Source: Candidatus Gallacutalibacter pullistercoris
GTDB lineage: Bacteria; Bacillota; Clostridia; Oscillospirales; Acutalibacteraceae
Assembly: GCA_018710915.1 (NCBI GenBank)
Contig: DVIY01000162.1
Span: 1-35,712, forward strand
Length of the DNA: 35,712 nucleotides
Reading direction: 5' to 3'
Part shown: positions 1,994 through 21,473 of the stretch, one piece after another
Layout of the letters: each line of letters starts with the position of its first letter
Numbering within the stretch: position 1 is the stretch's first letter
Notes under the pieces: model-generated
The model's input: the letters and a program-made list of their open reading frames with translations, nothing else
Databases searched by the model: none
Told to the model about the DNA's origin: nothing
Made by a program: the position numbers and the translations under genes

Positions 1994-2079
1994 GACGATT
2001 CTCCTTTATGTGTAATTTGAACGTAGTCTATTCATCAGTTCGCGGCAAATCATACCCAAATCCGCGGGGAAGCGGCTTT

Positions 2080-2355
2080 AAAATTTGCACCTGCTGCCCC
2101 GCGGCATAAAAGTTTTACTCGATTTTTTTCAAAAAATCGTGGGGGATCCAAAGGGGTGTTGTTTGCCAGTGGCAAACGTTGAACACCGACCGAGCCGGCA
2201 GGCGAGAACAAAACCCCTTGGTCGCCCGTCGCAACGGGCGAAACACCCCAACCTAAAGGGCGCATTTTTGAAAAGTGAATTTAAAATCTTCCGGGGGAAG
2301 ATTTTAAAGAGAAAAACTTTTTGAAAGAAAAAAAGTTTTTCTTCTCTGTTCCTGA
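2080..2355 (+). repeat. Structured interspersed repeat, copy A (about 276 bp)
   Basis: Aligns over its whole length with the reverse complement of 5481-5757. Shared blocks: AAAATTTGCAC, CCCCGCGGC(A/G)TAAAAGTTTTACTCGATTTTTTTCAAAAAATCG, CCAAAGGGGTGTTGTTTGCC(A/G)GTGGCAAACGTTGAACACCGACCGAGCCGGCAGGCGAGA, GGCGCATTTTTGAAAAGTGAATTT, GAGAAAAACTTTTTG.AAGAAAAAAAGTTTTTCT. Contains several perfect inverted repeats. Confidence 0.9.
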
Positions 2356-2409
2356 AAGTAGAATCAGAACCGGCAGCACACACCGGTGCGCTCCCTACAG
2401 ATATCCCAA

Positions 2410-5480: not shown

Positions 5481-5757
5481 TCAGGAACGAAGCAGAAAAA
5501 CTTTTTTTCTTGCAAAAAGTTTTTCTCTTTGAAATCTTCCACTGGAAGATTTCAAATTCACTTTTCAAAAATGCGCCTTTCAGGAAAAGATTTTCGCTGC
5601 CTGCGGGCAGCGACGCAAAGGGGCGCCGGTCTCGCCTGCCGGCTCGGTCGGTGTTCAACGTTTGCCACCGGCAAACAACACCCCTTTGGAAACCCTGCGA
5701 TTTTTTGAAAAAAATCGAGTAAAACTTTTACGCCGCGGGGAAGCAAGTGCAAATTTT
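5481..5757 (-). repeat. Structured interspersed repeat, copy B (about 277 bp, inverted relative to copy A)
   Basis: Reverse complement aligns end to end with 2080-2355; lies in the recX-rimO gap. Confidence 0.9.
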
Positions 5758-5807
5758 GATGCTGTTCCCACGCGAATCGACTGCGGGGGCTACGCCGGCT
5801 TCGGAAT

Positions 5808-16099: not shown

Positions 16100-16275
16100 A
16101 GACAGCCAAAAATTTGCAGAAGCTGACCCGCGACGCAAAAATTTTCGTCCAAGTCTTCGCTACCGCTACGGTCGGCGCCTTGTTTGTGTGCCACTGGCAC
16201 ACAGCGCCCTTTTATAAAAGGTGGCGAGGGGGCAAGGGGGCGAGAAGCCCCCCAAACAGGCGAAGCCTGCATGAT
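16100..16275 (-). repeat. Divergent third relative of the structured repeat (copy C)
   Basis: Minus strand AAAGGGCGCTGTGTGCCAGTGGCACACAAACAAGGCGCCGACCG resembles copy A AAGGGGTGTTGTTTGCCAGTGGCAAACGTTGAACACCGACCG. Core 16170-16212; outer limits uncertain. Confidence 0.6.
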
Positions 16276-19703: not shown

Positions 19704-21473
19704 ATGGCACGGAAGAAAGCAGAACCCAGCAAAAAACAAACTGCTGCAAAAGCGGCTGCTCCTGTGGCAGCCGAGAAGGAACCTGCCGCAGCAGTAAAAC
19801 CTGCGGCTGAAGAAACTGCGGCCCCAGCCGTCGAAAAAGCAAAGCCTGCTGCTAAAAAAGCTGCATCCACCACCAAAAAAGCAGCGCCAGCGAAAAAAGC
19901 CGCTCCTGTGGTTGAACCGGCTGCTCCCGCAGAAGAAGCTGCTCCTGCAGAAGCTACTGCTCCCGCAGAAGAAGCTGCTCCCGCAGAAGAAGCCGCTCCC
20001 GCAGAAGAAGCTAATCTGCCTCGCAGAAGCGTTGCATTCATTGGTTCAGAGTGCCATCCGTTCGTCAAGACGGGCGGTTTGGGCGATGTCATGTACGCGC
20101 TGCCCCGCGAACTGGTTCGGCTGAATTGTGATGTGCGCGTTATTCTGCCCCGTTATGCCTGCATCCCGCAGAAATATCAGGATAAAATGATTTATCGCGG
20201 CGAGTTCTACATGGATCTTGGAAAGACCGGACGCCAGTATTACGTGGGTATTATGGAATATATCTGCGATGGCGTGGTATATGATTTCATCGACAACCAG
20301 GAATTTTTCTCTGCGGGCAATCCCTATATCAACCTGGTAGACGACATCCCCAAGTACTGCTTCTTCAGCAAGGCTGCTCTGGCTGCACTGAACTATATGG
20401 ACTGGATTCCCGACATCATCCACTGCCACGACTGGCAGGCAGGCCTTGTACCGGTTTATCTGCGCACGCTGTTCAAGGATTCCCCGGTGGGCCGTGCACG
20501 TTCCATCATCACTATCCACAACCTCCGCTTCCAGGGTATCTACAATATCCCCACCATCCAATACTGGTCCGGCCTGCCCGACGAAGTATTCAATATGGGC
20601 GCATTGAAGCAGGGATATGAAGACGCCAACATGTTCAAGGGCGGCCTCGCCTATGCAGACCGCATCACCACTGTCAGTGGTACATATGCACAGGAAATCC
20701 AGACCAGCGAGTACGGTGAGAACCTGGAAGACCATCTGCGTTACCACAGCGGCAAACTGAGAGGCATTGTCAATGGTATCGACTATGAAATGTGGAACCC
20801 GGAAACGGACCCCGCACTGGCAGTCAACTATGGGCTTGGCAATGTGCTCGACCACAAGATGGCGAATAAACTGGCACTTCAAAAAGAGCTTGGCCTGGAA
20901 GAAGACAAAGACAAATTTGTTATCGGGCTTATCTCCCGCCTCACCAACCAGAAGGGATTGGATCTCGTCAGCTCCATTATCCCGCAGGTATTGGACGGCA
21001 ACACACAGGTCGTGGTTCTGGGTACCGGCGATAAGCAGTATGAAGACACCTTCCGTTACTATGAGAACGCTTACCACGGCATGTTCAGCGCCTGCATCCA
21101 GTATGATGAAGCCAGAGCGCACCGTATCTATGCAGGTGCAGACGCACTGCTGGTGCCGTCCCGCTTTGAGCCCTGCGGCCTGACGCAGCTCAACGCAATG
21201 CACTACGGCACACTTCCCATTGTCCGCGAGACCGGCGGCCTAAAGGATACTGTGGAGCCTTACAACGACTTCACCGGCGACGGCAACGGCTTTACGTTTG
21301 ACCGCTACGACGCAGGCCTGCTGCTCGACGCAATCAACCGCGCCAAGACCGTTTACTTTACCAACCGCTATCACTGGGACGAAATTGTCCAGCGCGATAT
21401 GGCAAAAGATGTCTCTTGGGAGAATTCTGCGAAGCAGTATAAAGACCTGTACCTGGAGCTGACACAGTGGTAA
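19704..21473 (+). CDS. glgA: Glycogen (starch) synthase, GT5, with Ala/Lys/Pro/Glu-rich N-terminal extension
   Basis: Catalytic part RRSVAFIGSECHPFVKTGGLGDVMYALPRELVRLNCDVRVILPRY ... IITIHNLRFQGIYN ... PSRFEPCGLTQLNAMHYGTLPIVRETGGLKDTVEPY. Start 19704 (AAAGGAAG SD). Confidence 0.94.
   Translation: MARKKAEPSKKQTAAKAAAPVAAEKEPAAAVKPAAEETAAPAVEKAKPAAKKAASTTKKAAPAKKAAPVVEPAAPAEEAAPAEATAPAEEAAPAEEAAPAEEANLPRRSVAFIGSECHPFVKTGGLGDVMYALPRELVRLNCDVRVILPRYACIPQKYQDKMIYRGEFYMDLGKTGRQYYVGIMEYICDGVVYDFIDNQEFFSAGNPYINLVDDIPKYCFFSKAALAALNYMDWIPDIIHCHDWQAGLVPVYLRTLFKDSPVGRARSIITIHNLRFQGIYNIPTIQYWSGLPDEVFNMGALKQGYEDANMFKGGLAYADRITTVSGTYAQEIQTSEYGENLEDHLRYHSGKLRGIVNGIDYEMWNPETDPALAVNYGLGNVLDHKMANKLALQKELGLEEDKDKFVIGLISRLTNQKGLDLVSSIIPQVLDGNTQVVVLGTGDKQYEDTFRYYENAYHGMFSACIQYDEARAHRIYAGADALLVPSRFEPCGLTQLNAMHYGTLPIVRETGGLKDTVEPYNDFTGDGNGFTFDRYDAGLLLDAINRAKTVYFTNRYHWDEIVQRDMAKDVSWENSAKQYKDLYLELTQW

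Follow-up and report, generated by a model that had tools for sequence, protein, structure and literature searches.

A folded element of 51–67 nt, probably mobile as DNA, within a palindromic repeat mosaic of Candidatus Gallacutalibacter pullistercoris and in other Clostridia and phages

The closest described systems are the REP elements, which in the literature measure 21–65 nt and are recognized as folded single-stranded DNA by TnpA_REP (PMC8266576, PMC6006769). According to the accessible portion of one survey (PMC3733652), REPs of the CGTC type have no dedicated transposase, some of them lie within genes, Rickettsia elements included, and RPE-4/6 (Rickettsia palindromic elements) are equated with them; the same portion gives Proteobacteria, Chlorobi, Bacteroidetes, Spirochaetes and Thermotogae as the phyla of the CGTC superfamily. 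The element described here resembles REP/BIME sequences in being short palindromic DNA, present in many copies, intergenic and arranged in mosaic clusters. However, its consensus has no GTAG/GTGG or CGTC foot tag at either end, it is not a single palindrome of 20–40 nt but a unit of 51–67 nt (stem A, hairpin 1, in some copies hairpin 2, and hairpin 3, with invariant unpaired bases), and its hosts are Clostridia, outside the phyla that the accessible portion of the survey lists for REP superfamilies (PMC3733652). With the ends of IS200/IS605 elements (IS608 type, Y1 HUH) it shares insertion 3' of a short motif, lack of target duplication, subterminal hairpins and possible pairing of a target base with an internal guide, but it has no transposase gene, spans 51–67 nt only, does not correlate with Y1_Tnp and shows no strand bias. 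Like RPEs, it is a small palindromic element found within protein genes, sometimes in frame, yet its sequence is unrelated, its fold has three to four stems and it is mostly intergenic; like MITEs, it is non-autonomous, small and patchy, but the empty sites examined reveal neither terminal inverted repeats nor target duplication. The best reading is that the element is a well-delimited variant of small palindromic mobile DNA of the REP-like kind. A literature search with a 20-mer and related terms found no description of it in open full text, which is weak evidence of novelty.

The window, i.e. the whole stretch of 35,712 nt that was analysed, had been given a preliminary description in which a repeat of 277 bp, starting at position 2080 and present in two near-complete copies of opposite orientation, was taken to be a small non-autonomous element acting at the DNA level. 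The two inverted copies are real (2060–2355 against the reverse of 5481–5777, 88–90% alike): a repeat search within the window recovered inverted arms at 2060–2219/5618–5777 (160 nt, 88% alike) and 2252–2355/5481–5584 (104 nt, 90% alike), and the similarity begins about 20 nt before position 2080. The cysE/cysS and recX/rimO gene pairs that enclose the copies are both on the minus strand, copy 1 of the repeat being antisense to its pair and copy 2 sense. When window positions 2060–2370 (311 bp) were compared by BLAST with the organism's own genome (G000; 2.35 Mb in 269 contigs), the second copy was matched at 84% over 296 of 311 bases (E 3e-88), and there were 68 matches altogether, far above chance and nearly all partial; the genome thus does have further copies, the lack of which would have told against the earlier view. 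These partial matches form three blocks (query positions of about 1–97, 92–148 and 155–296), the middle one recurring as an identical stretch of 57 bp in four or more other contigs. The 277-bp repeat is therefore modular, with a middle module that spreads alone, so that the sequence previously treated as one unit combines a palindromic mosaic of the genus, referred to here as the chassis, with an independently inserted element of about 52 nt. The earlier view held as to kind (the repeat is orientation-neutral, absent from the corresponding gap in congeners and without a match to any Rfam family) but not as to unit, and a third, degraded copy of the element had been overlooked. The window thus contains the following features.

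2157..2208, plus strand: 52-nt folded, putatively mobile element, copy 1 (covariance model R1 match 2154–2208, E 5e-10; ends ±1 nt)
2187..2207, plus strand: 3' block CGACCGA-NNC-GRCA-GN'N'-GAGA, almost invariant and serving as the search key
2062..2156, plus strand: left half of the chassis, copy 1 (repeat arms; element-free at C256, C218, C238, C103 and C266)
2209..2355, plus strand: right half of the chassis, copy 1 (repeat arms; own-genome copies)
5629..5680, minus strand: 52-nt element, copy 2, oriented as recX/rimO (model R1 match 5629–5683, E 1.9e-10)
5481..5628, minus strand: right half of the chassis, copy 2 (repeat arms; recX–rimO gap comparison)
5681..5777, minus strand: left half of the chassis, copy 2 (repeat arms; recX–rimO gap comparison)
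16153..16206, minus strand: third, degraded element copy, upstream of a tex-like S1-domain gene (model R1 match 16153–16209, E 4.5e-6; sequence)

The chassis is an ordinary palindromic intergenic repeat, a genus-specific mosaic. Its left half consists of a weak GC palindrome, a CGATTTTTTTCAAAAAATCG hairpin and then CCAAAGGGG, the left arm of the element-bearing palindrome, and its right half of a CCCCTTGG arm, TCGCCCGTCGCAACGGGCGA and the hairpins AAAATCTTCC..GGAAGATTTT and AGAGAAAAACTTTTT..AAAAAGTTTTTCTTCTCT; as a whole it is a run of palindromes (CGATTTTTTTCAAAAAATCG; CCAAAGGGG..CCCCTTTGG; TCGCCC..GGGCGA; AAAATCTTCC..GGAAGATTTT; AGAGAAAAACTTTTT..AAAAAGTTTTTCT), and in both main window copies the element sits at its GGGG^C. 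Relatives of the 311-bp query were found by BLAST in all genomes of the same genus, while outside the genus it was mainly a core (query positions 125–151) that was matched, and the composite had no match among phage and plasmid sequences. The element itself occurs without the chassis mosaic in other genera and inside genes. The window repeat is probably an older palindromic mosaic with a later insertion. The degraded third copy adjoins inverted chassis pieces.

Comparison of filled and empty sites delimits the insertion. Paralogous chassis sites that are empty (C256, C218, C238, C103 and C266) read CCAAAGGGG^CAAAGCCCC or near variants, the filled counterpart in the window being CCAAAGGGG-TGTTG...GAGAA-CAAAACCCC, and at C225 and C150 the module has the opposite orientation to the chassis repeat around it. 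At the recX gap, a sister species (G001) has an orthologous site in which the chassis is kept and the flanks match (GTAGCCCCCGCAG.CGATTCGCG) with the element missing, the junctions being CCAAAAGGG^CGGCGCCC as against CCAAAGGGG-(52 nt)-CGGCGCCCC in the window. Chassis and element are both absent from the cysE–cysS gap of three congeners (G001, G002 and G004) and from the recX–rimO gap of two (G002 and G004). Phage genes also offer filled and empty sites: a methylase gene (L224) and its element-free counterparts (L589/L590) have near-identical flanks, with a net gain of 63 nt, in frame, at TATAATATGGG^..^CAGAACGC; taking out 66 nt from L272 restores MG^KNAQ, L592 being its empty counterpart (ATGGGG^AAAAACGC); and subtraction of 62 nt from a holin gene (PF05105; L220), of which L509 is a close homologue without the element, gives back DYITG^KMCAIS together with a full-length Pfam match. 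The target is RGG^, just 3' of a G run, the next base usually being C or A. Insertion is precise and 3' of this short target, with an end that shifts by one base between sites (YGC..GAGA or ..GAGAN), and the target-site duplication that was looked for is absent from the filled and empty sites aligned (chassis paralogues, the recX gap, the phage methylase and others). In tnpV genes (PF14198) the element lies repeatedly at the same codon, IGIWG^ (L117, L149, L203, L214, L393, L405 and others), a hot spot that arises from TTTGGGG^C or ATGGGG^; here too, joining the two sides restores the frame and reveals no target duplication. Further insertions were seen in tRNA genes: at about 1990–2060 of L100 the element is antisense within a tRNA-Glu gene of a phage-like tRNA array, and tRNA-Pro fragments in Lachnospiraceae (L254; L164) hold two copies in tandem.

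Some coding insertions are in frame and open (methylase genes in L155, twice, L224 and L631/L632), whereas others introduce a TGA stop (L214) or a frameshift (L117 and L220), and because of this we claim no function at the protein level. The length of the element is divisible by three in 52 of 150 copies, so no selection for such lengths is seen; 70 of 150 copies are stop-free against at most 48 in single-base shuffles, but as the copies share one conserved core this depletion is not used as evidence.

Every full copy follows a common plan, with three or four short stems. Next to the target (RGG^) comes YGC, the 5' side of stem A, then hairpin 1, whose loop is CC-RGT-GG, and hairpin 2 in one subtype; these are followed by GCRCC (the 3' side of stem A), GACCGA, hairpin 3 (NNC GRCA GN'N') and GAGA before the C or A of the target. 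Copy 1 of the window is made up as TGTTG-hairpin 1 (GTTTGCC AGT GGCAAAC)-GTTG-AACACC-GACCGA-hairpin 3 (GCC GGCA GGC)-GAGAA. In an alignment of 40 sequences, 98.3% of the cells are paired and 13 of 20 pairs show compensatory changes; two-sided changes occupy 91 cells against 18.6 ± 3.1 after shuffling (none of 500 shuffles reached the observed value), and changes on one side only are confined to 5 of 800 cells. Sliding the partners lowers pairing to 35–50%, a control biased in favour of the fold as the structure was read from the same sequences, the shuffles being the better control. The bases of hairpin 3 left free by the search key are complementary in most fold-bearing copies (GC/GC 15, GG/CC 9, GT/AC 5, AC/GT 3, AG/CT 2, AT/AT 2), with a few exceptions such as L276 and L310, while in fold-free matches of a degenerate search, from unrelated phages, they are mostly non-complementary. 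Two deviating variants, CGACCGTAG..CGAAGAC and CGACCGGAG..CGGAGAC, point to an A.G mismatch beneath hairpin 3. The covarying stems lie around invariant unpaired bases. The loop of hairpin 1 recurs, flanked by GGTGAA..AGAGG, in other repeat hairpins of these genomes (chassis hairpins such as window 5528–5556, L013, L196 and L200), which may represent a second element that the same enzyme reads; the idea that CCRGTGG marks hairpins in general was dropped, the loop being no more than weakly enriched outside the element.

Our favoured reading, to which we give a probability of roughly 70%, is that this is a non-autonomous mobile DNA element of about 51–67 nt, moved in trans and recognized in the form of a folded single strand. 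One strand would fold into stem A around hairpin 1 (loop CC-RGT-GG), plus hairpin 2 in one subtype, with the invariant CGACCGA, hairpin 3 (NNC-GRCA-GN'N') and the GAGA 3' end lying 3' of stem A. Insertion would then take place 3' of a G run (RGG^), usually before C or A and without target duplication, the last G of the target perhaps pairing with an internal C atop stem A in the manner of a guide. In the genus of the window, the element would have entered the GGGG arm of the pre-existing palindromic mosaic in either orientation and have ridden along with it since, and larger genome-specific repeats would also carry it about. Of this, covariation establishes the fold and empty sites the precise insertion, and patchy copy number, tandem arrays and occurrence in phages are likewise observed; the substrate is probably single-stranded DNA, and the enzyme might, more tentatively, be an HUH/Y1-type or other structure-specific recombinase. 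A more ambitious proposition, on which we would put rather less than even odds, is that the element represents a new, minimal class of mobile DNA, among the smallest known, in which a three- to four-stem single-stranded DNA fold with a built-in target guide is recognized by a putative recombinase, a class common to Clostridia chromosomes and phages and possibly spread by the latter.

Could the element be an ordinary REP mobilized by a TnpA_REP (RAYT) transposase? It is small, palindromic and mostly intergenic, forms BIME-like mosaic clusters and makes no target duplication, and the REPs of 21–65 nt in the literature are recognized as folded single-stranded DNA, but the missing tag at the hairpin foot and the three or four stems noted above render this unlikely, as does the distribution of the enzyme. 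Y1_Tnp (PF01797) is absent from seven genomes that hold copies (G002, G004, G019, G039, G153, G635 and G924), present in a copy-free one (G210) and broken or weak in two other copy-free ones (G285 and G257), and it shows no correlation with copies when copy-rich and copy-free relatives are compared. No RAYT gene is flanked by copies. The organism's own genome has a single intact Y1 transposase (C121, 13543–13899; L093), with no copy of the element in the 4.4 kb examined. An all-against-all comparison of ORFs beside copies revealed no recurring gene family, only ordinary synteny, and the genes between close copy pairs are housekeeping or uncharacterized, none of them recurrent.

The 20-mer CGACCGAGCCGGCAGGCGAG was found in more than 119 contig stretches of named genomes and in six IMG/VR contigs, and among the matches listed most are from Oscillospirales and other Clostridia (Acutalibacter, Neglectibacter, rumen and gut MAGs). 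A 21-mer with up to one mismatch occurs in 28 of 394 genomes of the order and in 2 of 399 genomes drawn from the phylum, one of these being the organism's own; a reversed-pattern control gave zero in every set. With the covariance model (E≤1e-5) the element was detected in 23 of 245 genomes of the order, the frequency thus being about 7–9%. Copy number is patchy: the model counts 18 copies in the organism's own genome, 125 in G360 (by inference an Acutalibacter isolate), 55 in G330 and 28 in G019, with none in G210 and G396, and a single genus includes G324 with 33, G413 with one, and G257, G285, G342, G348 and G372 with none. The element also stands alone in tandem arrays: contig C33 of G324 ends in six or more near-identical units of 63 nt, and core-only arrays occur in L131 and L244 as well.

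In copy-rich genomes most copies lie within one larger, genome-specific repeat and share long flanks (43 of 65, 18 of 24 and 16 of 27 copies), so much of the copy number may come from movement of the larger repeat. It is nevertheless quite unlikely that the element is a mere inner part of larger palindromic or MITE-like repeats that do the moving, even though in some rumen MAGs it stands between terminal-like TATA..CCGC and GCGG..TATA ends: the larger repeats differ wholly between genomes while the element is unchanged, and the core alone has entered genes and tRNA fragments, is found in both orientations in the same chassis and forms tandem arrays. Copies in L107, L118, L123, L124, L143 and G379 (L423–L427) have a 3' extension, GGGGACAT..GTTATA, with a matching TATA..CCGC sequence upstream of part of them; here the element seems to be built into a MITE. 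In eight related phages (L271, L277, L279, L282, L283, L291, L295 and L296) it lies between ACCGAAAGG and a GGAGG ribosome site, which looks like a gene leader.

Deep covariation and invariant unpaired bases are also what an RNA family would show, and the exact restoration of reading frames once the element is removed recalls an intron. If the fold acted as RNA, G.U should be tolerated far more readily than A.C. Among some 2,700 pairs (15 stem positions in about 190 distinct copies, parsed by Watson–Crick scoring, which favours neither), G.T pairs number 23 and A.C pairs 27; since G.T is no commoner than A.C, the fold appears to be selected as single-stranded DNA, not RNA. Both might be rare in part because the copies are young or because imperfect palindromes have been corrected by mutation; template-switch correction can yield perfect palindromes, but hairpin 3 is only 3 bp long and the constancy of loop and linker bases must have some other cause. 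Orientation is equally neutral, with 41 copies sense and 50 antisense to ORFs (from a crude caller that over-calls), 13 against 16 in co-directional gaps and 69 against 76 relative to the leading strand by GC skew, i.e. without lagging-strand bias. Rfam gave nothing at gathering score and, even at E≤10, nothing that aligned to the element's fold. That the element is a structured RNA (riboswitch, ribozyme, attenuator or small intron) which happens to be repeated is therefore highly unlikely, the more so as it lies antisense in a tRNA gene (L100) and to cysE–cysS, and as several insertions are stop-free and in frame, where splicing is unneeded. The intron or ribozyme reading, prompted by frame restoration and the tRNA insertions, was rejected on the absence of G.U preference and orientation bias; the literature on Faecalibacterium HDV-like ribozymes offered no lead. 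There is very little chance that selection keeps the repeat at these gaps as a bidirectional terminator or a host-protein site, as, although the chassis hairpins of copy 2 score terminator-like (3 against 0.8 expected), those of copy 1 are at chance level (1 against 0.8), convergent and divergent gaps are used alike (11 and 12) and the repeat is missing from cysE–cysS in G001, G002 and G004 and from recX–rimO in G002 and G004.

If the reading of a mobile single-stranded DNA element is true, a family is added to the mobile elements of Clostridia and their phages that goes unnamed there in REP surveys, as far as their accessible portions go, and the 51–67-nt unit is a possible handle on a structure-guided, target-pairing recombinase. 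The element is short enough for gene callers to miss and is counted inside annotated ‘hypothetical’ ORFs, and phage methylase, holin and tnpV genes are disrupted or lengthened by it, in or out of frame. Its covarying fold, together with natural empty and filled sites, makes RAYT-free movement of REP-like DNA directly testable. Elsewhere in the window, six direct repeats of 18 nt (19879–20022) encode an Ala/Glu/Pro-rich protein stretch.
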